From contig JAGYOR010000006.1 of assembly GCA_018399535.1 (NCBI GenBank), forward strand, positions 1 to 34,563: a stretch of DNA of 34,563 nucleotides, read 5' to 3'. This stretch comes from Deltaproteobacteria bacterium. GTDB lineage: Bacteria; Desulfobacterota; Syntrophia; Syntrophales; UBA2210. Within the stretch, counting starts at the first letter, position 1, and every line of letters begins with the position of its first letter. A program made the translations under genes and the position numbers. Under the pieces are notes generated by a model. The model ran no database searches and had not been told where the DNA came from. It saw only the letters and a list, made by a program, of their open reading frames with translations. Positions 3,270 through 26,901 of this stretch are shown here, one piece after another.

Positions 3270-5606
3270 TTATTTCCGCGATGTCCAGACGGTTCCTTCC
3301 GGCGTGTCCTGTACCATGATTCCCCGTTTTGATAACTCTTCGCGGATCCGGTCCGATTCCTTCCAGTCCTTCCGATTTCTCGCGCGGTCCCGCTCTTCCA
3401 GCAGCAGCTCGATATCTTTATCAAGGTGTTGCTCTTTGAAATTCATGACGCCGAGAACATCGTCGATGGTTCGCATGACATCAAGGATGGCCCGTTGCTC
3501 CCGTTCATCGGGGCGGTGTTCCGAAAGGGCGAGGTTGACGGCCTTCACGAAAGCAAAAACGGTTGCCAGGGCGCCCGACACGTTCAGGTCGTCATCCATG
3601 GAAGTCATGAATCCCTGTTTGAGATCGTAGATCAGCTGGTCTATTTCGTCGCCGGTTCCCGGTCCCGGGACATACTTTATCAACAACTGAATAAAATTAT
3701 CGAGCCTTTTTACCGTGTTTGCCGCCGTGTCAAGGGCAGCGAAGGAAAAATTCAGAGGTTTCCGGTAATGCGAGCTGAGCAGAAAATAGCGAATTTCCCG
3801 ACCCGTGTATCCCTTCGCGGCAAGTTCTTCGATGGTGAACGTGTTTGACAGGGACCGGGACATTTTCTTGCCGTCCCGCATGACCAGCTCGGCGTTAAGC
3901 CAGAAACGGGCGGGATTGCTTTCGCAGGCAGCCGTTCCGATAGCCATGACGTTTTCACAGTGAGGGAAAATGATATCCGAGCCAGAAAGATGAATATCGT
4001 AAGTATCGCCCAGGTTTTTCCAGGCCACGGCCGCGCATTCGAGGTGCCAGCTTGGACGGACGTTTCCCCAGCGCGTTTTGTAGAAGATGCCCTGCTTCAA
4101 TTCTTCCAGCGTGGCGCGCTTGAAAAGGGTGAAGTCAACGGGGCTGTCTTTTTCGTAATCGTCCTGGTCGATGGTTTTCCTGTGCCGGACGCGGCTCAGG
4201 TCGATGTTGGAAAGGCTTCCGTAGTTGTCGAGCCGGGAAATGTCGAAGTACACCGAGCGTAATTTCTCGTAGGCGTATCCCTTTTCGACGAGTTTCTGCG
4301 CGAGATCGATCATGGCTTCCACGTGCCGGCTTGCCCGGGGATAGTGGATATCCTCGCTGACGTTGAGGATGCCCATATCCTTGAGAAAGGCCTCTATGTA
4401 TTGCCTGGTGTAGTGTTCCACGTCCATGCCGGCGCGGGTCGCACCCTTGACCGAATTGTCCGCCATGTCGATTATGTTGATTTCATGGACGACGGTAAAA
4501 CCCTTCAGTTTCAGGTAGCGCATGATCATGTCGGCCAGGACGAACCGGCGGTGTGTCCCGATATGGGGCACGTCGTGAACGGAGGGTCCGCAGGAATGCA
4601 TCAGCACGCGGTCAGTCCTGAGCGGCTTGAAGGGTTCCTTGCTCCGGGTCATGGTATTGTACAGCGCGAGGGTCATCAATTTCTCGTCGTTGAAAAGTTC
4701 CGTGCTGAGGTAGCGTTCGGCATTGTCGGGCAGAATGACGACCATGACGCCCTCACTCATGGTTTTCGCCTTTTCCAGGGCAACGTGCATCGCGGCGCCG
4801 GAACTCATGCCGACCATGATTCCCTCGACCCTGGCCAGCCTGCGTGCCATGGCCAGGGCGTCTTCATCCGCCACGTTCACCTTTTCGTCGAGCACGCTCC
4901 GGTCGAAAATGCCCGGCCGGTAGGATTCCTTCATATTTTTCAGACCCTGGATTCGATGACCCAGGTATGGTTCCACGCCGATGACGCGGATGTCGGGGTT
5001 GTACTCCTTCAGCCGTTTGCCGATTCCCATGATCGTTCCCGTCGTTCCGAGGGCCGCGACCACCGCCGTGACGGTTCCTTCCGTCTGGCGCCAGATTTCC
5101 TCCGCCGTTCCATGATAGTGGGCGAGAACGTTGTTCTCGTTGTTGAACTGATCGGGGGCGAAATAGTTATCCGGAGATTGCCGGACCGTTTCGTACACCT
5201 TCTCGATGGCGCCGTCCGTGCCCAGGCGGGCGGGCGTGAGAAGCAGTTCGGCGCCCAGCGCCTTGAGAACTTTCTTGCGTTCGTCACTCACGGCTTCGGA
5301 CATGGCGAGTATGATCCGGTATCCTTTTGCGGCGGCCACGAGGGCCAGGCCTATGCCCGTGTTTCCGCTGGTGGCCTCGATGATCGTTTTCTCCGGCGTC
5401 AGTACGCCGTCTTTTTCAGCCGCTTCGATCATGGCGAGGGCGATCCGGTCTTTCACGGATCCGCCGGGATTCATGCCCTCGAGTTTTCCGTAGACGATCA
5501 TCCCCTTCGACGGGTTCAATGTGTCGATTCTCACGAGCGGGGTGTTGCCGACAAGATCGAGGATCGTTCCCCGAGGCTCTCCGGCAGGTCGATTGGATGT
5601 GTTCAT
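3270..5606 (-). CDS. Fused cysteine synthase / cysteinyl-tRNA synthetase-like protein
   Basis: One 778-residue frame joins two complete enzymes. Residues 13-305 are a PLP-dependent O-acetylserine sulfhydrylase: LVGNTPLVRI, GGSVKDR with PLP lysine 52, EATSGNTG at 77-84, and ALGTTGTIMG at 185-194. Residues 311-778 resemble class I cysteinyl-tRNA synthetase: Cys339 and HIGT at 348-351, WHLEC with Cys524, HLSGSD, KMSRS at 581-585, and a full-length helical C-terminal part. Two synthetase blocks are altered: FPHHENE reads FPHCENV (residue 553 is Val, where E. coli has a zinc-ligand Glu), and the DDKII-like block reads ADNSV. ATG 5606 is preferred to an upstream TTG at 5654; neither has a good ribosome binding site. 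The product would make cysteine and activate it, if both halves work. Confidence 0.93.
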   Translation of the reverse strand: MNTSNRPAGEPRGTILDLVGNTPLVRIDTLNPSKGMIVYGKLEGMNPGGSVKDRIALAMIEAAEKDGVLTPEKTIIEATSGNTGIGLALVAAAKGYRIILAMSEAVSDERKKVLKALGAELLLTPARLGTDGAIEKVYETVRQSPDNYFAPDQFNNENNVLAHYHGTAEEIWRQTEGTVTAVVAALGTTGTIMGIGKRLKEYNPDIRVIGVEPYLGHRIQGLKNMKESYRPGIFDRSVLDEKVNVADEDALAMARRLARVEGIMVGMSSGAAMHVALEKAKTMSEGVMVVILPDNAERYLSTELFNDEKLMTLALYNTMTRSKEPFKPLRTDRVLMHSCGPSVHDVPHIGTHRRFVLADMIMRYLKLKGFTVVHEINIIDMADNSVKGATRAGMDVEHYTRQYIEAFLKDMGILNVSEDIHYPRASRHVEAMIDLAQKLVEKGYAYEKLRSVYFDISRLDNYGSLSNIDLSRVRHRKTIDQDDYEKDSPVDFTLFKRATLEELKQGIFYKTRWGNVRPSWHLECAAVAWKNLGDTYDIHLSGSDIIFPHCENVMAIGTAACESNPARFWLNAELVMRDGKKMSRSLSNTFTIEELAAKGYTGREIRYFLLSSHYRKPLNFSFAALDTAANTVKRLDNFIQLLIKYVPGPGTGDEIDQLIYDLKQGFMTSMDDDLNVSGALATVFAFVKAVNLALSEHRPDEREQRAILDVMRTIDDVLGVMNFKEQHLDKDIELLLEERDRARNRKDWKESDRIREELSKRGIMVQDTPEGTVWTSRK

Positions 5607-5650
5607 GATTGCAGGATACTTTCGCGATTGCGCCGCCGGTTCAAGACGCG

Positions 5651-6076
5651 TCAACTGTCAAGTTTGGGAGGAGGCGGTATTCGTAAAAATTCGATTCCCT
5701 CTTCTTCGAGTGTTTCCTGTTCTTCTTTCGTTGTCACTCCCTTGATGTTTCGCTTCGTTTCCTCGCCGCGATGCATCTTGATCGCTACATCGGCAAAGCG
5801 GTCGCCCACGTCGTCGAAGTGCTTGTCTATGAAGTCGTTCAGCATCTTGAGCATGGTCGGCACGGAGACATTCCGGTCATCCTCGCGGTCCCGCTCGGCC
5901 GATGCTTTCCGCCCGCTGATTGAAATCGACGACGGGACCATTTCGACCAGTACGCTTCCGCACACGGGGCATTCGATGCACTTCCGCCTTTTCTGATCTT
6001 CGAAGGACGCCCGGTCCTTGAACCAGCCTTCGAATTTGTGTTCATTGTCGCATACGAGATCGTAAATTATCACCAC
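5651..6076 (-). CDS. DUF1178 zinc-ribbon-like protein
   Basis: This 141-residue protein has the DUF1178 layout: YDLVCDNEHKFEGWF at the start, a charged linker, then CIECPVCGS, which gives a paired-cysteine metal site near residues 33-39. The C-terminal half has the family's IKMHRGEE...RNIKG block and ends in a proline run (IPPPPKLDS). The function is unknown. The start is GTG at 6076, with a second GTG at 6073; a GAGGAA sequence lies just upstream. It would be the first gene of the minus-strand operon, 44 bases before the CysK-CysS fusion. Confidence 0.85.
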   Translation of the reverse strand: MVIIYDLVCDNEHKFEGWFKDRASFEDQKRRKCIECPVCGSVLVEMVPSSISISGRKASAERDREDDRNVSVPTMLKMLNDFIDKHFDDVGDRFADVAIKMHRGEETKRNIKGVTTKEEQETLEEEGIEFLRIPPPPKLDS

Positions 6077-10147: not shown

Positions 10148-11032
10148 TTATTCAATATTCTGGGCCTGTTCGCGCAGCTTGGCAAGTTCCGTTTTTACGT
10201 CGATGACGGTACGTGATATATCGAGATCGCTGCTCTTCGAACCGATCGTGTTGATTTCACGATGCATTTCCTGAATGAGAAAATCGAGCCGCCTGCCCGC
10301 GGGTTCCGTGCCGTCCAGCAGGTCCCTGAACTGGCTGATGTGACTGTCAAGACGAACCAGCTCTTCGGTGATGTCCGTTTTCTCTGCCATCAGGGCTATT
10401 TCCTGTGAAATGCGAGTTTCGTCCAGTTCCACTCCCGTGGTGAGTTCCTTTAAACGGTCCGTCAGGCGCTGGCGGTATTCCACTACCACTCGTGGTGAAC
10501 GGGAATCAAGGAAATCCCGCCATTCTTTGATCGAATCGATCCGGTCCAGGAAATCCCGGTACAGCAGGGCGCCTTCCCGCTCCTTCATGTCCGTCAGGGC
10601 CGACAAGGCGCCGTCCACGCCCTGCTCGATGGCGGGCCTGACGCTCTCGTTGGTATATTCGGGTTCCGCGGCGTATATCCCGTTTTTAACCGAGCTGACA
10701 AGCTCAAGTGTTACAGGATCCTGCAGGTTCAACTCTTCCCGTATTTGTTCGAGAACGGCGTAGTATTCGCGAATGAGCGGCAGGTTGAGCTGCAGGACGG
10801 AAGACTCTGCGGTCCCCTGGCCCGCCTCGAACCTGAGAACCGCCTCGACCCGTCCCCGGGAGACCCGTTCGGCGATTTTCTTTTTTATCATGATTTCAAG
10901 TTCGCCGAGACCGTTCGGAATCCGCACGCTCATTTCAAGGTTCCGGTGATTGAGAGACTTGATTTCGACGATCAGGGATTTATCTCCGCATGCCGTTTCC
11001 GACCGTCCGTATCCCGTCATGCTTCGTATCAT
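10148..11032 (-). CDS. yicC: YicC/YloC family endoribonuclease
   Basis: A 294-residue YicC family member. It starts MIRSMTGYGR, as members do, and its C-terminal DUF1732 domain carries the RLDFLIQEMHREINTIGSKS block followed by VIDVKTELAKLREQAQNIE. E. coli YicC has been reported as an endoribonuclease; activity here is inferred from family. Its ATG overlaps the DUF4416 stop by four bases (ATGA), so the two are coupled. Confidence 0.92.
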   Translation of the reverse strand: MIRSMTGYGRSETACGDKSLIVEIKSLNHRNLEMSVRIPNGLGELEIMIKKKIAERVSRGRVEAVLRFEAGQGTAESSVLQLNLPLIREYYAVLEQIREELNLQDPVTLELVSSVKNGIYAAEPEYTNESVRPAIEQGVDGALSALTDMKEREGALLYRDFLDRIDSIKEWRDFLDSRSPRVVVEYRQRLTDRLKELTTGVELDETRISQEIALMAEKTDITEELVRLDSHISQFRDLLDGTEPAGRRLDFLIQEMHREINTIGSKSSDLDISRTVIDVKTELAKLREQAQNIE

Positions 11033-11586
11033 TCAGCCGTCTCCGTTTCTTTTTCTTTTCTGGCCGCCGCCAGCTGTTTAAGGTATTTTTTCCGTATTCC
11101 CGCAAGCATGTCGATCATCGATTGCTCCCGGTAATCGGGGTAGGTCCATTCCTGCGGCCTGAAAGACATGTCCCGGTAAATCAGCGTGACGTCGGCGTAG
11201 ACGCCGTTCCGCAGGTACGGCCTGTGCGCGTATGGTTTTCCCGTTGCCAGGAGCAGGTGCCCCACGGAGATATAGCCGGGATCGATGTTGATCCGTCTCT
11301 TCATCCCCGTGGCGGATTGTTGCTCCAGCTCTGCAGTGAACATTTTTATATCGGGAAGATCAGCCGGGTGGATCAGCGTTTCGAAAGCGATAAGCCGCCG
11401 CACCAGGCCAGGACCCATTTCTTTCCTGTAATACGTCGTAAAATCGAAAGGGAGTATCGCGCTGACATAATCCGTTTTGCCGTATCGTTCCGCCAGGGCG
11501 CCTATGACCCCGGGAATAAGGTCTCTCTCTGTTGAGAGCAGGCTTGCCACCAGTTTGACCGGGTCTGGTTGTTGAAGAATACTCAT
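11029..11586 (-). CDS. DUF4416 family protein
   Basis: This 185-residue protein resembles DUF4416, a family of unknown function. Recognisable stretches are DPVKLVASLLS near the start, TDYVSAILPFDFTTYYRKEMGPGL in the middle, and RRINIDPGYISVGHLLLATGKPYAHRPYL, with late YREQSMIDMLAGIRKKYL. It has no signal peptide or membrane segment. The stop-start overlap with yicC and the chain to gmk and rpoZ suggest a conserved RNA- or nucleotide-linked role, but that is context only. Confidence 0.85.
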   Translation of the reverse strand: MSILQQPDPVKLVASLLSTERDLIPGVIGALAERYGKTDYVSAILPFDFTTYYRKEMGPGLVRRLIAFETLIHPADLPDIKMFTAELEQQSATGMKRRINIDPGYISVGHLLLATGKPYAHRPYLRNGVYADVTLIYRDMSFRPQEWTYPDYREQSMIDMLAGIRKKYLKQLAAARKEKETETAE

Positions 11587-15825: not shown

Positions 15826-16494
15826 GTGGTCACCCTGAAAACTTTGACCAAGACCTTCATAAAGGACGGCAACGCTGTGGACGTGCTGAAGGGGATCGAC
15901 CTCGAGATAGCCGCCGGGGAGACCGTGGCGGTTCTCGGTGTGTCGGGATCGGGGAAAACGACGCTCCTGCAGATCATGGGTTTGCTTGATCATCCGACCG
16001 GCGGTTCCGTCTTGTACGACGGCGTTGATGTATTCACGGGCGACGAGCGGACAAGGGCCAACTTCCGCAACCGGCGGATCGGGTTTGTTTTTCAGTTTCA
16101 CCATTTGCTTCCTGAATTCACGGCATTGGAGAACACCATGATGCCGGCTCTGATCGGTGGCGTGCCTCGCCGGGAGGCGCTCGGAATGGCGGAGGCAGCC
16201 TTGACTGAGGTCGGACTTGGTGATAGGTTACCCCACAAACCGGGTGAGCTTTCAGGGGGGGAACAACAGCGGGTCGCCGTGGCGAGAGCCATGATCATGA
16301 AACCGGCCGTCCTTCTCGCCGATGAACCCACGGGCAATCTGGATGAGGCGACAGGTCGGAAAATCGAAGAATTGCTGTTGCAGTTGAACGGAGCGCGGGA
16401 GACGACGCTCGTAGTTGTCACCCACAACAATCAGCTGGCCCGGCGTATGTCGAGGACGTTAGGCCTGAAGGACGGTACGTTGCATGAATTATAA
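15826..16494 (+). CDS. lolD: Lipoprotein-releasing ABC ATPase LolD
   Basis: The 222-residue ATPase powers lipoprotein release by the permease encoded just upstream. Walker [10 protein letters not shown] is at 38-46, the Q-loop region is [15 protein letters not shown], the signature LSGGEQQR starts at 142, and Walker B ends with Asp166-Glu167 in [11 protein letters not shown]. The [10 protein letters not shown] segment is typical of LolD. The start is GTG, with GGAGG overlapping the stop of lolC/E. The end overlaps bamA by eleven bases. Confidence 0.95.
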
Positions 16495-19129
16495 TCACCT
16501 TAAAAAGCTGGTGATGGTCATACTGATGCTGCTTCTTGTTGCTCCTCGAGTTTCTGCGGCTGAAGAGACCAGGAAAATAGCCCTTTTCCCGTTCAGCATT
16601 CACAGCGAAACCGACGTGTCGTTTCTCAAGGAACGCATCGCCGGGAGTATCAGGGCTGAATTTCTGAAACAACCATACATCCAGGTTATCGACCGGGAAA
16701 TCCTGCGGGATCTTGTCGGAAATGATCCGCCGACGGAGCGGTCCGCGGTTGAAGCAGGTCGACGGGTGGGCGCTCACTACGTGGTCACGGGAAGTCTGAC
16801 CATGCTCGGTGAGTTAATCAGCGCCGACGTCCAGGTTGCGGACCTCGAACGGGGGGTTGTCGTGCGGGATTTGTACGCCCAGGGACGGGGCATTGAAAGC
16901 GTCGACACCATAGCGGCTGATCTGGTGAAAGAAGTGCTCGTCAGGCTATTCGCCCGCCTGCGAATTGCCGAAGTTCGCTTTGAGGGAAATCAGCTCGTGG
17001 AGGACGACGCCCTGTATAACGCGATCGAGGGAACCAGGGGGACCCTCTTCTCCCAGCATGTTTTGTCAGAGGACATCAGGGCTCTCTACCGTATGGATCA
17101 TTTCAGCGATGTCAGGGCCGAAGTGACCGAGTCTCCCGAAGGAAGGACAGTCACCTTTATACTGAAAGAGCGGCCCCGTATCGCCGAGATCAGCATCGAG
17201 GGAAACCGCAAAGTCAAGGAACGGGATATCAGGGACATACTCACCATAAAACCCCGGCAACTGTATGACCCCGACAAGACCAACAACGACGCCGAAAATA
17301 TCAGGATGCTATATAAGGAACGGGGATATCTCAATGCCCGCGTGTCGTTCGTTGCTGAGGGCGAAGAAGAGGGGCGCGATGTCACCGTGGTATTCACCGT
17401 GGAAGAGCATCGAAAACCATCGATCAAGAGCATTTCATTTGAAGGGAACAAGGTCTATACCGACAAGGAACTCAAAAAAATGATGGAAGTGTCCGAATGG
17501 GGCATTTTCCATTTTCTCACCGATGCGGGCCTGTTCAATCGGGTGGAGCTGGAGAGGGATATGGAGCGGCTCACCGTTTTTTATCATAATAACGGGTTCA
17601 TTGACGCCCAGATCGGCGAGCCCGAGATAGAGACGGATGAACGGTGGATATATATTACCATCCCCGTCCACGAAGGCCGGCAGTACCAGGTAGGTACGAT
17701 TGACATCACCGGCGATACCCTGGATGTTTCATATGACGAGTTACTGGAGAATCTCGAAATTACGCAGAAGGACTATTTTGACCGTGAATCAGTGGTCAAT
17801 GACATTGATTACCTCACCGGCGCCTGTAATAACGAAGGATATGCCTATGCGAACGTGATCCCCCACACCGAGATCGACAAGGAAAAGCAGACAATCAGCG
17901 TGACCTTCGAACTTCAGAAGGGCAACAAGGTATACATCGACAAGATCACCGTTTCCGGAAACACGAGGACCAGGGACAAGGTGATCCGCCGGCAGCTCCA
18001 GATCATCGAAGGTGAACTCTATAACAGGGACAAGCTGGAAAACAGTTATGAATCCCTGAACCGGCTCGAATATTTCGAGGAGGTCAATTTTCAGACCGAG
18101 CAGGGTTCCGATGAATCTCTCATGGATGTGGATGTTCAGGTCAGCGAAAAGGCCACGGGGCTGTTCAGTGTCGGCGCCGGGTACAGCGCCCAGGAAAAGG
18201 CCCTTTTCATGGCCCAGATAGCGGAACGGAATCTCTTCGGCCGCGGGCAGACGATCAGCGTCAGCGCCCATCTGGGATCGTCCACCACTAATTACGAAAT
18301 AGGCTTTGTCGAGCCCTGGCTATTCGACATGCCCCTCTGGAGCAAGGCCGAGGCCTGGAACATGGAAGTGGACCGCGATTTCTACGATGTCAAGACCAAG
18401 GGAGTGGCGGGAACGCTCGGCTATCGCCTCTTCGAATACGTGGATGGTTATGTCCGGTACCGGTACGCCGAAAACGATGTAACAAATATTTCTTCCTACG
18501 CTTCCTGGTATACCCGGCAGCAGGCGGGCAGTACCAGCTCAAGCGGCGTGAGAATGACTCTGATGCGGGATACGAAACGGCCCTGGATGTTTCCTTCCCG
18601 CGGTTCGCGCAACTCGGTGTACGTGGAATACACGGGCGGTATTTTCCAGGGCGACACCAGTTTCATCCGCTACGGTGCCGAAACACGCTGGTATTTCCCC
18701 CTTCCCATGAATAACGTTTTCAGCGTTAAGGCTGAGGTAGGCGCCATCAGCGGACAGAACGACAAGGGAGTTCCCATTTACGAACGATTCTACATGGGCG
18801 GTATCAATTCACTGAGAGGCCTTCGCGATGTAGGCCCCAGGGATCCTGGCTCGGGAGAGGTGATCGGCGGCAAGACCATGATGCTCTATACCGCTGAATG
18901 GCTTTTCCCGCTTCTCAAGGACGCGGGCGTCAGGGGCGTCGTTTTCTACGATACCGGGAACACGTGGGAAAGCGGCCTGCATCTGGACGATATGCGTCAG
19001 ACGGCCGGCGCGGGTATTCGATGGAATTCACCTATCGGCCCCTTCAGGCTCGAGTGGGGGCACGTGCTTGACAGAAAAGACGGCGAGTCTCCCCATCGAT
19101 GGGAGTTTACCATCGGCATGTCCCTGTAG
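16484..19129 (+). CDS. bamA: Outer membrane protein assembly factor BamA with N-terminal TolB-like domain
   Basis: BamA folds and inserts beta-barrel proteins into the outer membrane. This 881-residue form is longer than E. coli BamA (about 810). After a signal peptide (about 1-25, ending VSAA) come residues 29-158, which look like a TolB-N/FlgO-type fold ([32 protein letters not shown]). Five POTRA domains then start near 160, 232, 311, 400 and 482, each with a F/I-x-G-N or similar motif. The barrel (about 560-881) has the surface motif SLRGLR and ends in a hydrophobic-aromatic final strand. It overlaps lolD by eleven bases and is followed by skp. Confidence 0.95.
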
Positions 19130-19188: not shown

Positions 19189-19713
19189 ATGAGAAAATGT
19201 CTTGTTGTAGCAAGTATCGTTGCGGCGTTCATTCTGGTCGGTACCACGGTCCAGGCCGCGGAGAAGATCGGTTTTGTCGATATCAAGAGGATATTGTCGG
19301 AATCGGAAGCCGGCAAGGCCGCGACGCAGGAGATCATGCAGCACGTGGAGCAGAAAAAAGGCGAAATCAGTGCGATGGAAGGTGAATTGCAGAAGCGTAA
19401 GGATGAACTGGAAAAACAGCGTTCCGTACTGACCGAGGCGGCTTACCGGGAAAAAGAAATCGATTACAGGCAGCGCACGCGGGATTACCAGCGTTTTGTT
19501 GAAGACGCCAACGAGGAAGTAAAAATGAGAGAACAGCGGATGACGCAGGCCCTCATTCCCGATATACAGAAGGTAATCAATGAAATAGGAAACAAGGAAG
19601 GCTACACCGCTATTTTCGACGTGGGCACCATGGGGCTTCTTTTCAATTCCGACAAGTATGACATTACAGACAAGGTTGTGGAGCAGTACAACAAGGTGTA
19701 CCGTTCGAAATAG
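19189..19713 (+). CDS. skp: OmpH/Skp-family periplasmic chaperone
   Basis: It binds unfolded outer membrane proteins in the periplasm. The 174-residue protein has a signal peptide (about 1-23, ending VQAA), then KIGFVDIKRILSESEAGKAA, and a long charged coiled coil from about 45 to 125 that would form the tentacles. A C-terminal strand segment (YTAIFDVGTMGLLF) completes the small barrel. ATG 19189 has GGAGAGGAAAG upstream. The order bamA-skp-lpxD is a conserved envelope arrangement. Confidence 0.93.
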   Translation: MRKCLVVASIVAAFILVGTTVQAAEKIGFVDIKRILSESEAGKAATQEIMQHVEQKKGEISAMEGELQKRKDELEKQRSVLTEAAYREKEIDYRQRTRDYQRFVEDANEEVKMREQRMTQALIPDIQKVINEIGNKEGYTAIFDVGTMGLLFNSDKYDITDKVVEQYNKVYRSK

Positions 19714-19903
19714 TAACGGGCGGCGTCGGCTTTTCGCCGCGGCCGGCCTGCCTGCCGCCTTTCGGACTTTTCTCGACATTTTTTTGCAAGGGCGCCGCTC
19801 CGGTGTGAATTCAACATGTCCGCCGCCGGCGCTTCTGTATTGCACCCGTTAGTGATCGTACCCCGTGCCGCTGCGGCGGGGTAATCGAGTGCCGGAGCCT
19901 GTC

Positions 19904-20944
19904 ATGGCCATAAAACTTGCTGACATAGCTTCCCTTTTGGGAGGAACGGTCATCGGTGACGACGGTGTTGAAATCAGCGCCGTTGCCGGAATCGACGAGG
20001 CCTCGGACGGTGACCTGACCTTCGTGGCGAATCCGAAATACCGGGCGAAGATCGCCGAAACGGGAGCTGCTGCGATACTGGTGCCGCCCGACATCACTAC
20101 CGCCACGAAACCGCTGGTCGTTGTCGCCGATCCTTATGTCTCGCTGGCGATGGTCCTTGAAATTCTTTATCCGGAAGAAAAACCTGTTCCCGGCGTGAGC
20201 GAAAAGGCCTTTATTGCCCGCGATGCGGTCATCGACGACGATGTAACAATTTATCCCGGTGTCTTCGTGGGGTCAAAGGCGAGGCTGGAAAAAGGCGCGG
20301 TTCTTCATCCTGGCGTTTTCGTGGGTCCGGGGGCCGTGATCGGCGAGGATTCCGTCCTCTATCCAAATGTCGTCGTGTACCGCCGTTGCGTCGTCGGCAG
20401 AAGGGTCGTTCTTCATGCCGGTGTCGTGGTCGGCGGCGACGGATTCGGATTCGCCAATCCCGGTGGTTCCAACGTGAAAGTACCCCAAGTCGGAATCGTT
20501 CAGATAGACGACGATTGTGAGATAGGGGCGAACACCACTATCGACCGGGGCACCCTGGGAAAAACCTGGATCAAGCGGGGTGTGAAAATAGATAACCTGG
20601 TACAGATCGGCCACAATGTGGTTGTCGGTGAAAACTCGATCATCGTGGCCCAGGTGGGCGTATCCGGAAGCACGAAAATAGGAGATGCCGTTCTGGTTGG
20701 CGGCCAGGCAGGCCTCGTGGGACACATCACGGTTGAAAACGGCGCCATGATCGCCGCGAAAACAGGCGTTCACAAGAATGTTCCGGCGGGGGCGGTTGTG
20801 TCCGGTTCTCCCCAGATGCCGCATGGCGAATGGTTACGGGTGCAGAGCACGCTTCCCCGTCTTCCGGAGATGCGGAAAGAGCTGGCGCGTCTGGTCGAAC
20901 GAATCGAAGGGCTTGAGAAAAAAATACGAAACAACGAGGAGTAA
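19904..20944 (+). CDS. lpxD: UDP-3-O-acylglucosamine N-acyltransferase LpxD
   Basis: It adds the second acyl chain in lipid A synthesis. The 346 residues have the N-terminal uridine-binding domain (to about 100) and a left-handed beta helix of hexapeptide repeats. The catalytic histidine is His237 in [10 protein letters not shown], and [11 protein letters not shown] matches the family signature. A C-terminal helix ([19 protein letters not shown]) follows. ATG 19904 has GGAG seven bases upstream; a GTG at 19865 would add thirteen residues. The stop is seven bases before lpxA, so fabZ, which often lies between them, is missing here. Confidence 0.96.
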
Positions 20945-20951
20945 TACAGGG

Positions 20952-21725
20952 ATGAACATTCACTCGACCGCCGTCGTATCGCGTGATGCGACCGTCGGAA
21001 GTGACGTGACTATAGGGCCCTACAGCATCGTGGGACCCGACGTTTCCATCGGTGACGGGACTGTCATCGGTCCCCACGTAGTTATCGAAGGTCCCACGGA
21101 TATAGGGAAGGGAAACCGCGTATTCCAGTTCGCTTCGATCGGGGCCGAACCTCAGGATCTCAAGTTCCGCGGGGAACAGTGCAAGGTCGTCATCGGCGAC
21201 AACAACACGATACGGGAATTCGTGACCATTCACCGTGGAACGGCCGCCGACATAGGTATGACCGCGATAGGCGACAGCAACCTTATCATGGCGTATTGTC
21301 ACGTTGCTCATAATTGCAGCCTGGGAAGCAATATCGTTATGGCCAATGCCGCCAACCTGGCGGGGCACATCACCGTTGAAGACCACGTAACCATCGGCGG
21401 TATGACGGGCGTGCACCAGTTCTGTTCCATCGGCTGTTACGCCATGATAGGCGGGGCGTCGGCGGTCACCGCGGATGTGCCGCCTTACGTGATTGCCTCG
21501 GGAAACCGGGCGAAACTTTACGGTCTCAACCTCGTGGGAATGGAACGAAAAGGGTTCCCGGCGGATACGGTCAAGGCGCTGAAAGAGGCATACCGGCTGC
21601 TCTTCCGATCATCGCTTTTGATAAAAGAAGCGGTGGAAAAAATAAAAAAAGACATGCCGTCCATTCCCGAGGTGAACCACCTGGTCGCGTTCATCGAAAA
21701 ATCGGAACGGGGCGTCTGCCGGTGA
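20952..21725 (+). CDS. lpxA: UDP-N-acetylglucosamine acyltransferase LpxA
   Basis: It starts lipid A synthesis by O-acylating UDP-GlcNAc. The 257 residues are hexapeptide repeats with the catalytic histidine His120 in CHVAHNC, then [30 protein letters not shown]. The C-terminal helical part is [11 protein letters not shown]. Gly168 aligns with E. coli Gly173, a residue linked to acceptance of C14 acyl chains, so a long hydroxyacyl chain is likely; this is inference. GAGGAG overlaps the end of lpxD, giving a coupled start. Confidence 0.95.
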
Positions 21726-21759
21726 CAATCCCGCGGGACGGCGAATCAGGGAATTGGAA

Positions 21760-22707
21760 ATGAAAGAATTGAAAGTCGGGGTCGTGGGGATCGGTCACCT
21801 GGGAACCTATCACCTCGAAAAATATAATAAAATAAAAAATTGCACAATCGGCGGCGTGGTCGATATCGACCGGGCACGGGCGGAAAACGCGGCCGCGCGG
21901 TTCGGCTGTGAGGCATTCACGGATCACAGGGATCTCGTCGGCATCGTTGATGCCGCCAGCGTTACCACGCCGACGGTGTCGCACCATGCCGTAGCGATTG
22001 ATTTTCTCGACGCCGGCGTTGACGTTCTTGTCGAAAAACCAATGACATTGACACTCGAAGAAGCTGATGATCTCGTGGCCGCCGCGAAGAGGGGCGGGCG
22101 GGTGCTCCAGGTCGGGTTCGTTGAGCGGTTCAACCCCGCCGTCATGGCCCTGCGGGAAATCATGGGCCCACCGCTTTTTATCGAGGCCCACCGGCTTCAC
22201 CCTTTTCACAGCCGGGGAACCGACGTGGACGTGGTCCTGGATCTCATGATACACGATCTGGACCTGATCCTTGCCTCCGTGAAATCGCCCGTTGAAACCA
22301 TCGACGCCGTCGGCGTTTCGGTATTGTCCGACAAGGTGGACATCGCTAACGTGCGGATAGCCTTCGAAAGCGGGTGCGTCGCCAACATTACGGCGAGCAG
22401 AATCACGGGCAAGAAAATGCAGAAAATACGGTTTTTCGGTCTTGATGGTTACCACTCCCTCGATTACGCCAAGCGGGAACTGGTGTCGCTGGAAAAAGTG
22501 GCCGGTCCGAACGGTGAAACGGATATCGGCATGAGGGATGTGACCCTGAGACAACACGATCCCCTCGAAGAGGAAATACGTCACTTCGTCGATTCGGTCG
22601 CCTCGAGAACTGTTCCTCTCGTCTCGGGCGAGGAGGGAAGGAAATCCCTGGAGTTGGCGCTTCGCGTGATACAGTGCATGAAACGAGGAAGAAGCCCCGG
22701 CGAGTGA
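21760..22707 (+). CDS. Gfo/Idh/MocA-family oxidoreductase in lipid A cluster
   Basis: This 315-residue NAD(P)-dependent sugar oxidoreductase has the Rossmann glycine motif VGVVGIGHLGTYH, the EKPM lysine-proline motif (VLVEKPMTLTLEEAD), and the C-terminal half with MIHDLDLIL, a histidine pair typical of the catalytic site. The position between lpxA and lpxB suggests a role in modifying the lipid A sugar or nucleotide-sugar. GnnA, which oxidises UDP-GlcNAc to allow 3-amino lipid A, is one such enzyme, but its aminotransferase partner GnnB is not seen here. ATG 21760 is used; a TTG at 21754 is possible. Confidence 0.88.
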   Translation: MKELKVGVVGIGHLGTYHLEKYNKIKNCTIGGVVDIDRARAENAAARFGCEAFTDHRDLVGIVDAASVTTPTVSHHAVAIDFLDAGVDVLVEKPMTLTLEEADDLVAAAKRGGRVLQVGFVERFNPAVMALREIMGPPLFIEAHRLHPFHSRGTDVDVVLDLMIHDLDLILASVKSPVETIDAVGVSVLSDKVDIANVRIAFESGCVANITASRITGKKMQKIRFFGLDGYHSLDYAKRELVSLEKVAGPNGETDIGMRDVTLRQHDPLEEEIRHFVDSVASRTVPLVSGEEGRKSLELALRVIQCMKRGRSPGE

Positions 22708-22712
22708 GTGTC

Positions 22713-22841
22713 ATGGCAGAGCAATTCCCGCGGGTACAGAAGGTGATAAAACGGCCGGTCGCTTGCTTCGAGCCGTGGATTTTCCGGCGGAATACCACGG
22801 GGAGGTACCTGTCCCCACATCGGCGGGAGTGTGAGTTGTAA
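22713..22841 (+). CDS. Candidate 42-residue small protein between Gfo/Idh gene and lpxB
   Basis: An ATG at 22713, five bases after the upstream stop, opens a 42-codon frame whose TAA overlaps the lpxB ATG (TAATG). It fills the gap exactly. The product is basic (MAEQFPRVQKVIKRPVACFE at the start, RRNTTGRYLSPHRREC near the end), with no clear membrane segment or motif. It may only couple translation to lpxB, or be chance. The upstream ribosome-binding signal is weak. Confidence 0.25.
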   Translation: MAEQFPRVQKVIKRPVACFEPWIFRRNTTGRYLSPHRRECEL

Positions 22842-24082
22842 TGGAAGCCGACGCGATTCTGCCGGCCGGTTCCGGGAAAAACATTGTCATCGTGGCCGGT
22901 GAAGCATCAGGAGACCTTCACGGGTCGATGCTGGTGACCGAGATGTTACGCCTCGATCCGGGCGCACGTTTTTTCGGCATCGGCGGCGACCGGATGAAAA
23001 AGGCCGGAGTCGAGCTGACCGCGCACGCTTCCGATCTCGCGGTGGTGGGAGTGACGGAAGTGATCCCGAAACTGGCGGCCATTCTCGCATGCCGTCGAGC
23101 CCTCAAGGATCGTATTCGACGGGATCGGCCCGATCTTCTGATCCTGATAGATTTTCCCGACTTCAATATGCCGCTGGCCAAATTCGCCCACAAACAGGGC
23201 ATTCCCGTATTCTACTACATCAGTCCCCAAGTCTGGGCATGGCGGAAAAACCGTATTTACTTCCTTGAAAAATATGTCGATGCCATGGCTGTCATTCTTC
23301 CATTCGAGGAGGAATTTTACCGTTCCACGCGTCTCCCCGTGCGTTTCGTGGGGCATCCGCTCCTGGACCGCGTGTTCCTGAGGGAGCCCCGGGAAAAAGC
23401 AGCGCAGCGCCTCGGTCTCGAACCGGGCAGGACAACTGTCGCCCTTCTTCCGGGAAGCCGCCGGAAGGAAGTGTCGTCACTCCTGCCGGTTATGTTCGAC
23501 ACGGCCCGCCGTATTGCCGACCTGGTTCCGGGGGTGCAGTTCGTACTTCCCCTGGCAGAGGGCATACCGGCCAATGCCCTTGACGAAGCCGGCCGTGAAC
23601 ACGCGCCGGATATAACTGTTGTCAGAGACAGCTTCTACGAGGCGCTGGGAGCGGCCGACGGCGCCATCGTGGCGTCGGGAACATCGACGCTGGAGGCGGC
23701 GCTCCTTGAAGTCCCCATGGTTATCATATATAAGGTGTCCGTTCTTTCGTATCTTCTGGGAAGGATGTTCATAAACGTGGATTATATCGGGCTTGTCAAT
23801 ATAATAGCAGGACGTCGGGTGGTACCGGAATATATACAGGGGAACGTGAAACCGGCGGAAATCGCGGGCGAACTGGCTTCAATGCTCGCCAGCGGAACCC
23901 GGCGGTCCAGGGTTCTGTCCGATCTCAGGGAACTGCGGAGCAGGCTGGGAGAGCCGGGAGCGGCGGCCAGGGCGGCCGCCATGGCCTTCGAGTTGATACA
24001 TCGTGATCCGGCGATGCGTGCCGGGAACAATTCATCGGGGCATATCCCGGCGTCGACGTTTTCCGGGGGAGGCGCGTCATGA
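22841..24082 (+). CDS. lpxB: Lipid-A-disaccharide synthase
   Basis: It joins UDP-diacylglucosamine to lipid X to form the lipid A disaccharide. The 413 residues (family about 380) have VAGEASGDLHGS, FFGIGGDRM, LLILIDFPDFNMPLA, the YYISPQVWAWRKNRI block, VRFVGHPLLDR and ALLPGSRRKEVSSLLP, all hallmark LpxB segments. The N-terminus has about twelve extra residues before KNIVIVAGEA. Its stop overlaps the msbA start (ATGA). Confidence 0.96.
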   Translation: MEADAILPAGSGKNIVIVAGEASGDLHGSMLVTEMLRLDPGARFFGIGGDRMKKAGVELTAHASDLAVVGVTEVIPKLAAILACRRALKDRIRRDRPDLLILIDFPDFNMPLAKFAHKQGIPVFYYISPQVWAWRKNRIYFLEKYVDAMAVILPFEEEFYRSTRLPVRFVGHPLLDRVFLREPREKAAQRLGLEPGRTTVALLPGSRRKEVSSLLPVMFDTARRIADLVPGVQFVLPLAEGIPANALDEAGREHAPDITVVRDSFYEALGAADGAIVASGTSTLEAALLEVPMVIIYKVSVLSYLLGRMFINVDYIGLVNIIAGRRVVPEYIQGNVKPAEIAGELASMLASGTRRSRVLSDLRELRSRLGEPGAAARAAAMAFELIHRDPAMRAGNNSSGHIPASTFSGGGAS

Positions 24083-25821
24083 AAATATACCTGCGTCTTC
24101 TTGCAATGGCCAGGGATCACGTGGGGAAATTTCTGATTGCCCTCCTGTGCATGGGCGGTTTCAGTATCGCCACGGCGGCAATGGCCTACCTGGTGAAACC
24201 CATCATCGACGATATTTTTGTAAACCGCGACGCTTCCATGCTCACCATCGTCGCCCTCACGATCCTCGCCGTCGCGTTCGTGAAAGGCATCTGCAGCTAC
24301 GGCCAGGTGGTGCTCATGAGCTTCATAGGCCAGCGGATCGTCACGGACCTGCGGAACAACCTGTACAATCACATTCAACGGCAGTCCCTTTCCTTTTTTT
24401 ACCGTAATCCCACGGGAACACTCATGTCCCGGATCACCAACGACGTCAATTTTATTCAGCAGGCCGTATCGGAAGCGGTTACCAGCCTTCTGAAAGATTC
24501 CCTGATGATTCTGGCGCTGGCCTGCGTCATCGTGTACATGAACTGGAAACTGGCCCTGGTGGCGCTTTTTGTTTTTCCCCTGGCCGTGTATCCCATCGTC
24601 AAATTCGGGGAGAAAATGCGACGCGTCGCGACGGACAGTCAGGTAACCATGGGAACCCTGTCGAGCCTTTTGCAGGAAACCATAGCGGGCACCCGCATCG
24701 TCAAGGCATTCGGTATGGAGGCCCATGAAGGGGATCGATTCGCCCGGGAGAACGAAAACCTTTTCCATCTGTTCATGAAATCCGTTTCCATTCGCGCGCT
24801 CTCCAGTCCTTTCATGGAGTTTCTCGGGCACCTGGGAGTGGCCGCTATTGTTCTCTACGGCGGGTACCAGGTCATCCAGGGAGAATCGACGCCCGGGACG
24901 TTTTTTTCCTTCATGACGGCCCTTATAATGCTCTATGAGCCGGTGAAGCGTCTCAGCAACGTGAACAATACCGTTCAGCAGGGAATCGCGGCGGCCCAGC
25001 GTGTGTTTAACGTCATGGACAGCAGGCCTGACATCGGGGACAGAGAGGGGGCGATTGACCTGCCTCCGATACGGCGTTTCATCGAAATCAGCAACATGAC
25101 GTTCGGATACGGCGACGAGCCGGTGCTGAAAAATATCAACCTTACCATCAGGACCGGGGAAGTGGTAGCCTTCGTGGGGATGAGCGGCGTGGGCAAGTCC
25201 AGCCTGGTAAACCTGATTCCCCGGTTTTACGATGTGTCGGAAGGTTCGATCCGTATAGACGGTCGTGACATACGGGATGTGACACTTCGGTCCCTTCGAG
25301 GCCAGATCGGAATCGTCACGCAGCAGGTAATTCTTTTCAATGACACCGTGCGGAACAATATTGCTTACGGGGATATAACGAAAAGCGACGAAGATATTGT
25401 CAGAGCGGCCGTGGCGGCACGGGCACACGATTTCATCATGAAGCTGCCGAAAGGATACGATACCGTTATCGGCGAACAGGGCGTAAGGCTTTCCGGGGGT
25501 GAACGCCAGCGCATCTCCATCGCCCGTTCGTTGCTGAAAGACGCCCCGATTCTTATTCTCGACGAGGCCACATCGTCCCTGGACACGGATTCCGAAAAAG
25601 AAGTCCAGGAGGCGCTGGAAAACCTCATGCGGGGCAGGACGACGCTGGTCGTGGCTCACCGGCTTTCGACCATACGCAACGCCGACCGGATCATCGTACT
25701 CTACGACGGGACCATCGTTGAGGAAGGATCGCACGACCTGCTCATGGGAAAGAGGGGAGAATACCACCGCCTGTTTACCATGCAATTTGAAAACAACGGG
25801 ACTCCTCTCGCGGTGGAATGA
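24079..25821 (+). CDS. msbA: Lipid A export ABC transporter MsbA
   Basis: It flips lipid A-core across the inner membrane. The 580 residues fuse a six-helix exporter domain (about 1-320) to an ATPase: Walker A GMSGVGKS at 367-374, signature LSGGERQR from 471, and Walker B ending Asp495-Glu496 in ILDEATSSLD, followed by the AHRLSTI switch. The N-terminus YLRLLAMARDHVGKFLIALL and the lpx context support MsbA over other exporters. It is coupled to lpxB by the ATGA overlap. Confidence 0.94.
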   Translation: MKIYLRLLAMARDHVGKFLIALLCMGGFSIATAAMAYLVKPIIDDIFVNRDASMLTIVALTILAVAFVKGICSYGQVVLMSFIGQRIVTDLRNNLYNHIQRQSLSFFYRNPTGTLMSRITNDVNFIQQAVSEAVTSLLKDSLMILALACVIVYMNWKLALVALFVFPLAVYPIVKFGEKMRRVATDSQVTMGTLSSLLQETIAGTRIVKAFGMEAHEGDRFARENENLFHLFMKSVSIRALSSPFMEFLGHLGVAAIVLYGGYQVIQGESTPGTFFSFMTALIMLYEPVKRLSNVNNTVQQGIAAAQRVFNVMDSRPDIGDREGAIDLPPIRRFIEISNMTFGYGDEPVLKNINLTIRTGEVVAFVGMSGVGKSSLVNLIPRFYDVSEGSIRIDGRDIRDVTLRSLRGQIGIVTQQVILFNDTVRNNIAYGDITKSDEDIVRAAVAARAHDFIMKLPKGYDTVIGEQGVRLSGGERQRISIARSLLKDAPILILDEATSSLDTDSEKEVQEALENLMRGRTTLVVAHRLSTIRNADRIIVLYDGTIVEEGSHDLLMGKRGEYHRLFTMQFENNGTPLAVE

Positions 25822-25836
25822 AAAGACGGCGCAATC

Positions 25837-26901
25837 ATGGCAAGATCGGCCGACTACGTGAGAAAGAAACTCGAAGGAACGGGCAGGGCGCTGCCGCTCG
25901 TTTCCTTCCCCCTGTCGCTCGGATACGAAGCGATCGTCAGTCTGCGCAACACCTGCTATGACAGGGGGCTTCTTCGCACGCGACGGCTTCCTCTTCCCGT
26001 TATCAGTGTGGGAAACCTGACTCTCGGCGGTACCGGGAAGACACCGGCCGTGATCATGCTGGCCCGCCTTCTTCAGGAATGCGGATACCGGCCGGCAGTC
26101 GTCAGCCGAGGCTACGGCGGGCGAAACCGTGACGCCGTTACCGTGGTGTCGGACGGCAGGAGCATAAGTGCGACACCGGAGGAAGCAGGCGACGAGCCCG
26201 TGCTGATAGCGGAATCACTCGAAAATATACAGGTCGTAACGGCACGGCGACGCGTCGACGCGGGACGGGCGGTTCTGCAGAAATTCGAGGCAGATCTGCT
26301 GATTCTCGATGACGCATTCCAGCACCGAAGCCTCTTCCGGGACGTGGATATCGTTCTCGTCGATGGTGATCGTCCCTTTGGAAACGGGTGCATTATTCCG
26401 GGCGGCACGCTTCGGGAACCACCCGGCGGGATCCGTCGGTCTCACTTGATTATCGTGACGGACAGCCCGCCTGATTTCGACGCCGGTATAATCGAGCGGG
26501 TCGCCCCCGGCATTCCCATCTTCATGGCGCAACGTCGGCCGGAGGATCTGCTGGATTGTTCGAACGGAACGGTCCGGTCCCCGGAGTTCCTGCGGAATAA
26601 ACGGGTTGCCGCATTTGCGGGCATAGCGTTCCCGCGGCGTTTTCGCGAAACTCTTCTTCCCTGGTGCGGCTCGCTGGAGGCATTTTTTTCATTTCCCGAT
26701 CACCATATCTATGATGAGCGGGATGTACGAAAAATACGCGCCGCCGACGCCGATATCATAGTGACGACGGAAAAAGACGGTGTACGCCTGAGACGGTTCC
26801 CCGAATTTTACAATTCTCTCCGACTTTTCCGGATCGGAATGCACATCGTTCCTTCACCGGAAGAGCTGATGACGACCCTGTGCGGGAAGTTGCGACAGTG
26901 A
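25837..26901 (+). CDS. lpxK: Tetraacyldisaccharide 4'-kinase LpxK
   Basis: It phosphorylates the lipid A precursor at the 4' position on the inner membrane face. The 354 residues contain LPLPVISVGNLTLGGTGKTP with the P-loop at 59-70, then RPAVVSRGYGG, GDEPVLIA, the LLILDDAFQHRSL Walker B-like motif, and IVTTEKDGVRL near the end. The first helix (residues 18-36) probably binds the membrane. It follows msbA by fifteen bases; waaA, often placed between these two genes, is not here. Confidence 0.95.
   Translation: MARSADYVRKKLEGTGRALPLVSFPLSLGYEAIVSLRNTCYDRGLLRTRRLPLPVISVGNLTLGGTGKTPAVIMLARLLQECGYRPAVVSRGYGGRNRDAVTVVSDGRSISATPEEAGDEPVLIAESLENIQVVTARRRVDAGRAVLQKFEADLLILDDAFQHRSLFRDVDIVLVDGDRPFGNGCIIPGGTLREPPGGIRRSHLIIVTDSPPDFDAGIIERVAPGIPIFMAQRRPEDLLDCSNGTVRSPEFLRNKRVAAFAGIAFPRRFRETLLPWCGSLEAFFSFPDHHIYDERDVRKIRAADADIIVTTEKDGVRLRRFPEFYNSLRLFRIGMHIVPSPEELMTTLCGKLRQ

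Follow-up and report, generated by a model that had tools for sequence, protein, structure and literature searches.

What does a Gfo/Idh-type oxidoreductase do between lpxA and lpxB when no gene for the aminotransferase GnnB lies beside it? This question is raised by a gene in a stretch of 34,563 nucleotides of Syntrophales DNA, which was analysed as a whole and is called the window. The source genome, a draft with a completeness of 96%, comprises 230 contigs and 2.06 Mb. An earlier note on this DNA had reported a Gfo/Idh gene in the lpxA-lpxB gap, and this was confirmed. The open reading frame (the GFO gene, 315 amino acids) is intact, matches PF01408 and has lpxA (TIGR01852) upstream and lpxB (TIGR00215) downstream. 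It starts with ATG at position 21760 of the forward strand and its stop codon ends at 22707; an alternative TTG start is possible 6 bases upstream of the ATG. lpxA lies 34 nt upstream and lpxB 133 nt downstream. The genes form the row bamA-skp-lpxD-lpxA-GFO-lpxB-msbA-lpxK, in which bamA and skp were named by eye, and on the 3' side of lpxK two heptosyltransferase-type genes and a GmhB-type phosphatase gene were found. Promoter- or terminator-like sites from 19700 to 23000 were not commoner than in shuffled sequences. The features of the locus are the following.

16484..19129 (+): first gene of the row, bamA-like, assigned by eye from the translation; same position in relatives
19913..20944 (+): lpxD; TIGR01853, 346 bits (cut-off 242)
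20952..21725 (+): lpxA, UDP-GlcNAc O-acyltransferase; TIGR01852, 360 bits (cut-off 231)
21760..22707 (+): Gfo/Idh dehydrogenase of the GnnA type (315 aa), with NAD-dependent UDP-GlcNAc 3-dehydrogenase as its proposed activity; PF01408, best solved relative 7bvj, dN/dS 0.07-0.18
22036..22038 (+): codon of Lys93 (EKP motif), aligned with Lys91 of AfGnnA in the alignment to 7bvj
22252..22254 (+): codon of His165, aligned with His164 of AfGnnA in the alignment to 7bvj
22708..22840 (+): gap in which no gene or gnnB remnant was detected by blastx and locus comparison; position of gnnB in 29/57 related loci
22841..24082 (+): lpxB, lipid A disaccharide synthase; TIGR00215, 337 bits (cut-off 190)
24079..25821 (+): msbA; TIGR02203, 615 bits (cut-off 602)
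25837..26901 (+): lpxK; TIGR00682, 225 bits (cut-off 92)

The GFO protein has the make-up of a two-domain Gfo/Idh dehydrogenase, scoring over the cut-offs for PF01408 (E 7.3e-31) and for the two Gfo/Idh C-terminal families PF22725 and PF02894. Its best sequence match among solved structures was 7bvj with 208 bits, followed by the next with 85 bits. A predicted model of the protein (mean pLDDT 94.7) was superposed on 7bvj and 7bvk with Z 41.0 and 40.4, respectively (38% identity, rmsd 1.6 over 301 residues). Both entries are titled GnnA of Acidithiobacillus ferrooxidans, and both also took the top ranks in Foldseek. The next structure had a Z of 36.1. For WlbA structures with UDP-GlcNAcA, Z was 34.8 (19% identity) and 33.3 (22% identity), and the sequence match to WlbA 3q2i was 40 bits, compared with the 208 bits to 7bvj. 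Being nearer to GnnA in bits and Z, the protein was not assigned to the WbpB/WlbA group of UDP-GlcNAcA 3-dehydrogenases. Its best curated NCBIfam match was NF040723, the archaeal UDP-GlcNAc 3-dehydrogenase, yet the 226 bits obtained lie far below the cut-off of 450 bits and place the protein outside this equivalog. In the alignment to 7bvj, K93 and H165 align with K91 and H164 of AfGnnA, which we take to be the proposed catalytic bases. Both residues were invariant in 55/55 Syntrophales sequences and in 40/40 sequences of a wider set, the window's own being counted in both. Of the named relatives, the draft of Syntrophales bacterium STD1_60 is the nearest, with 71% identity in this protein. 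Sequence and model thus point to a gnnA orthologue, of the GnnA type rather than of the WlbA/WbpB type. The reading of the gene as a GnnA-like nucleotide-sugar dehydrogenase within the lipid A operon was borne out. The protein shares fold, length and both proposed catalytic residues with A. ferrooxidans GnnA, but its gene has no adjoining gnnB. Blastx of the gap to lpxB and its edges found neither gnnB nor a gnnB scrap (best E 1.5).

The GFO gene had been described as sitting in the place that lpxI has in many genomes. This holds in other groups: in 36 of the best 80 loci of a wider set, from several phyla, the gnnA-like gene has lpxI no more than 3 kb away. It does not hold in the Syntrophales, where LpxI was found in 0/80 genomes. 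The LpxI_C family (PF06230) had no match in the window's genome and gave a match in the control genome, Caulobacter; the GFO protein itself had no LpxI_C match at E <= 0.001. A match to the LpxH family was obtained in 73/80 Syntrophales genomes, over the curated cut-off in 5 of them, and the LpxH-like gene of the window's genome reached 121-122 bits, below the cut-offs. Since LpxI was found in none of these genomes and an LpxH-like gene is present in the window's genome, nothing suggests that the GFO gene stands in for LpxI. Its position and the 7/80 relatives without an LpxH match, including G001 and G003 of the window's genus, are what would speak for a UDP-diacylglucosamine pyrophosphatase that replaces LpxI. 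The Gfo/Idh oxidoreductase fold, the LpxH-like gene in the other relatives and the window's own genome, and the 36 loci in which lpxI and a GFO gene lie near each other make such a role extremely improbable. The seven genomes without an LpxH-family match at E <= 0.001 are G001, G003, G017, G024, G046, G055 and G061, and they had no LpxI match either.

As a separate observation, in four of these genomes (G001, G003, G024 and G046; 93-100% complete) lpxA and lpxB are present and the UDP-diacylglucosamine pyrophosphatase is unaccounted for. An LpxA match at E <= 1e-20 was absent in G050, G061, G069 and G074, of which G069 is listed as 100% complete.

We surveyed the locus in 80 Syntrophales genomes, the window's included. 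Some GFO match was found in 66/80 genomes, and in 57/80 an orthologue lies beside lpxA or lpxB; such recurrence of the gene at this position means that its placement is not due to chance. Directly 3' of the GFO gene, gnnB was present in 29/57 of these lpx loci and absent in 28/57. The gnnB-bearing loci include G072, where gnnB is interrupted by N, and G033, where it is split over two frames. Three of the 28 gnnB-less loci (G015, G047 and G068) retain gnnB scraps between the dehydrogenase gene and lpxB. In G015 (L139) the scrap covers codons 1-32 (best E 3.5e-7) and in G068 (L176) codons 261-362 (1.4e-31), and in G047 (L161) three separate gnnB pieces together form a short in-frame ORF (6.5e-14). 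As a control, 500 shuffles of the G015 gap gave an E of 1e-3 at best. The 24 other gnnB-less loci tested, the window's among them, yielded nothing better than E 0.07, and G013 is at a contig end. A tree of the neighbouring proteins with 56 placed genomes requires at least 10 changes in the gnnB state. Within the window's genus, each of the 5 genomes examined is gnnB-less, and other clades share this state.

Where gnnB is absent, the dehydrogenase gene is still under purifying selection. Its dN/dS was 0.07-0.18 in 7 gnnB-less pairs, some of which share genomes, and 0.06-0.19 in 4 gnnB-bearing pairs; three pairs inside the window's genus also gave 0.07-0.18. The values for lpxA, lpxD and lpxB span a range that includes these; dS was > 1 in several pairs, and G033/G077 gave no value for the GFO gene. 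Judged by the gnnB-less pairs, the dehydrogenase therefore appears to be still in use where gnnB is gone. The gene can also be lost, as lpxB lies next to lpxA with no GFO match between them in 16/19 GFO-less genomes with an lpxA match. Among the LpxA active-site columns listed, there was none that separates gnnB-bearing, gnnB-less and GFO-less genomes (23, 28 and 19 sequences; G072 was placed in the gnnB-less group, and the set was without Leptospira LpxA). Across phyla no clear LpxA signature was seen either. The scraps in three genomes, the loss of the GFO gene elsewhere and the uniform LpxA would all be expected of a leftover, that is, of a gnnA that has not yet decayed after gnnB was lost and lipid A went back to GlcN. 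We regard this as doubtful, given the low dN/dS and the conserved catalytic positions in gnnB-less lines and the gnnB-less state throughout the examined genus and in other clades.

The earlier note had stated that there is no GnnB partner and that the aminotransferase needed by GnnA is missing. For the neighbourhood this was correct; for the genome it is not clearly so, as the search for gnnB elsewhere turned up a candidate of the right family. Six DegT-family matches were found in the window's genome (G000), five of them over the cut-off. One, at G000:C176:34204-34764, covers the 187 N-terminal residues of a WbpE/GnnB-like aminotransferase whose gene is cut by the contig end. This fragment is 79% identical to a whole gene in the sister genome G001, and G003 also has one. 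We refer to proteins with at least 55% identity to the G001 protein as GnnB2, partial genes counted. GnnB2 matches the DegT family (PF01041) and forms one clade, separate from the clade of operon GnnB. The PLP lysine is kept in both, K204 of the G001 protein being fixed in the GnnB and GnnB2 groups. In the window's genome the fragment stops short of this position, so the lysine is unseen there. Against the WbpE structure 3nu7, GnnB2 scored 353 bits and operon GnnB 299 bits; the best structure match of GnnB2 was 4qgr (359 bits), an unnamed DegT enzyme.

The distribution of GnnB2 was then compared with the gnnB state. It occurs in 20/28 gnnB-less, 3/29 gnnB-bearing and 3/23 GFO-less genomes, and among genomes at least 90% complete in 19/23 gnnB-less versus 3/22 gnnB-bearing ones. 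With kinship ignored, the Fisher test gave 2.5e-6 for all genomes and 4.1e-6 for those at least 90% complete. On the tree, the exchange of gnnB and GnnB2 comes down to about 3 independent informative pairs, all in the expected direction, and a sign test on them falls short of significance (median p 0.25). In 8/20 gnnB-less genomes with GnnB2, no Gfo/Idh match other than the lpx dehydrogenase was found (E <= 0.001). GnnB2 was not found in G002 and G004 (84% and 80% complete). Four further genomes, G047, G056, G058 and G068 (92-99% complete), have the GFO gene, and neither gnnB nor GnnB2 was found in them. G068 has a different WbpE-type gene, 48% identical to GnnB, and in the other three the best DegT matches to GnnB are 34-37% identical.

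The neighbourhoods of GnnB2 were inspected in 23 loci (those of G033, G039, G055 and G065 excluded). GnnB2 directly adjoins a strongly matching nucleotide-sugar dehydrogenase gene in G003. A WbpM-like gene separates GnnB2 from such a dehydrogenase gene in G000 and G001; the dehydrogenase of G001 has 409 bits to TIGR03026. Weaker matches of this kind were seen in 8 more loci, and the fetched flanks of 12/23 loci contained none. Some GnnB2 genes, judged by eye, stand away from such genes, for example beside ilvD-like or acetyl-CoA-synthetase-like genes. A distant second Gfo/Idh was found near GnnB2 in 8/23 loci. In Pseudomonas aeruginosa, the UDP-GlcNAc3NAcA pathway is described as running through WbpA, WbpB, WbpE and WbpD (PMC10622841). 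WbpB and WbpE carry out the same pair of reactions on a uronic acid sugar, according to passages of the same source, and GnnB2 is WbpE-like; in contrast, the window's dehydrogenase is GnnA-like and not WbpB/WlbA-like.

These neighbourhoods bear on an alternative in which the GFO protein now serves O-antigen synthesis. Together with the C176 nucleotide-sugar dehydrogenase and the WbpE-like aminotransferase it would make a sugar of the UDP-GlcNAc3NA type, replacing a missing WbpB, and lipid A would contain ordinary GlcN. The gene setting of the WbpE-like GnnB2 in G000, G001 and G003 agrees with this, and so does the window's genome, in which no second Gfo/Idh match was found at E <= 0.001. At the 8 loci with a second Gfo/Idh close by, that protein looks like the usual partner of GnnB2. 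However, the dehydrogenase resembles GnnA, its gene stays within the lpx operon across the order, and 12/23 GnnB2 loci showed no nucleotide-sugar dehydrogenase match in the fetched flanks. We therefore consider this alternative unlikely, though it deserves more weight than the leftover.

Beyond the order, the best 80 of 582 relatives' loci (L009-L088; flanks incomplete in some) were evaluated. In 13 of these 80, gnnB lies directly 3' of the gnnA-like gene; lpxI and gnnB occur together in 0. We searched the genomes of 33 of the 36 lpxI-type loci, L025, L064 and L084 being left out. A GnnB/WbpE-like aminotransferase at E <= 1e-70 was present in 29/33, and therefore unlinked partners may be common. 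The corresponding count in GFO-less Syntrophales genomes was 8/23, a comparison that is no proof because phyla and genome sizes differ. The mutual exclusion of a nearby lpxI and an adjoining gnnB would fit a GFO protein that acts alone or with another, unnamed enzyme on a keto sugar, for example in C3 epimerisation or for another lipid A sugar, and that may do so in lpxI-GFO-lpxB operons as well. It would also fit G047, G056 and G058, which keep the GFO gene with only distant DegT proteins. Such a function appears improbable, less probable still than a decaying leftover, as most of the lpxI-type genomes searched have a GnnB/WbpE-like aminotransferase and no product-specific partner gene was seen. 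In several phyla a gnnA-type gene stands in lipid A operons, often as lpxA-lpxI-gnnA-lpxB, without an adjoining GnnB. It is conceivable, though rather unlikely, that it supplies, via a single borrowed aminotransferase, a pool of UDP-3-keto-GlcNAc or UDP-GlcNAc3N on which both lipid A and O-antigen draw, or that it leads to an undescribed lipid A sugar.

A further arrangement was seen in L056, L061, L068 and L072, three Rhodocyclales drafts and one betaproteobacterial one. Here gnnA and gnnB are followed by an LpxA-like gene (204-220 bits), which perhaps codes for an LpxA dedicated to GlcN3N.

The explanation that we favour, giving it about an even chance, is that the GFO gene is a gnnA whose protein works with the unlinked aminotransferase GnnB2, that the product goes into lipid A and that the LpxH-like protein carries out the pyrophosphatase step. 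GlcN3N is made from UDP-GlcNAc by GnnA and GnnB, as described in PMC8036547 and PMC3342949. Judging from family, fold and conserved residues, the GnnA-type protein would oxidise the 3-OH of UDP-GlcNAc with NAD+ to UDP-3-keto-GlcNAc. The gene for the next enzyme, gnnB, lies directly behind gnnA in many lines; in the window's genus it is out of the operon and was probably lost. Amination of this keto sugar to UDP-GlcNAc3N is most likely the work of unlinked GnnB2. In what is the least certain step, LpxA would acylate the 3-amino group, and lipid A would then contain some or only GlcN3N with amide-linked 3-acyl chains. The pyrophosphatase step would fall to the LpxH-like protein and not to the GFO protein. 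We infer the partnership of GnnA with GnnB2, the reaction and the entry into lipid A. The product may enter lipid A, O-antigen or both; the LpxA sequences do not discriminate, and GnnB2 lies near a nucleotide-sugar dehydrogenase in the genus. A new sugar modification had also been proposed, and we obtained no positive support for it. Since a candidate partner exists elsewhere in the genome, we are probably dealing with a known pathway whose genes have been rearranged.

Comparison with GnnA and with the 57 gene neighbourhoods, one of the checks suggested earlier, can be extended to described systems. In Mesorhizobium loti gnnA and gnnB lie apart from each other, and the genus is described as having GlcN3N lipid A (passages of PMC5644692). 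Thus, on that description, unlinked gnnA and gnnB partners are already known, and the window resembles M. loti in that gnnB does not adjoin gnnA. Unlike in the window, where gnnA is still in the cluster, both M. loti genes are placed away from lpxD-lpxA-lpxB in the same source. Granulibacter bethesdensis, which makes GlcN3N-lipid A, has one gnnA candidate and loosely similar gnnB candidates (37% and 39%), and its gnnB assignment is given as unproven at publication in the relevant part of PMC8036547. The window's genome is alike in that it has a single gnnA candidate, while its candidates for gnnB are only loosely similar. A search of titles and abstract openings, mostly open-access, found no treatment of an orphan gnnA in Syntrophales and no lipid A structure for this group. 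If our explanation is true, a gnnA next to lpxA is by itself a marker of GlcN3N-type lipid A in uncultured anaerobes, and surveys that demand gnnA and gnnB side by side would therefore miss it. The repeated change of the gnnB state with gnnA kept would provide a natural test of WbpE-like enzymes standing in for GnnB.

Another aminotransferase of the window's genome was examined as a GnnB candidate and rejected. At 70-3675 of L002 (on C156), an iron-containing alcohol dehydrogenase, a DegT aminotransferase and an HldD-like epimerase are encoded in a row. The aminotransferase shares 35% identity with GnnB across 284 residues and has a KdnA/KdnB-like setting. It resembles KdnA of 8-amino-Kdo synthesis, and the alcohol dehydrogenase and the aminotransferase are possibly a KdnB-KdnA pair of that pathway. 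Two other genes of the window, both on the reverse strand, were noted. A 794-residue ORF at 3270-5654 (-) combines a PLP-dependent domain of the cysteine-synthase type with a cysteinyl-tRNA synthetase. At 11029-11586 (-) a gene for a DUF4416 protein lies beside a YicC-like gene, followed in the same row by guanylate kinase.
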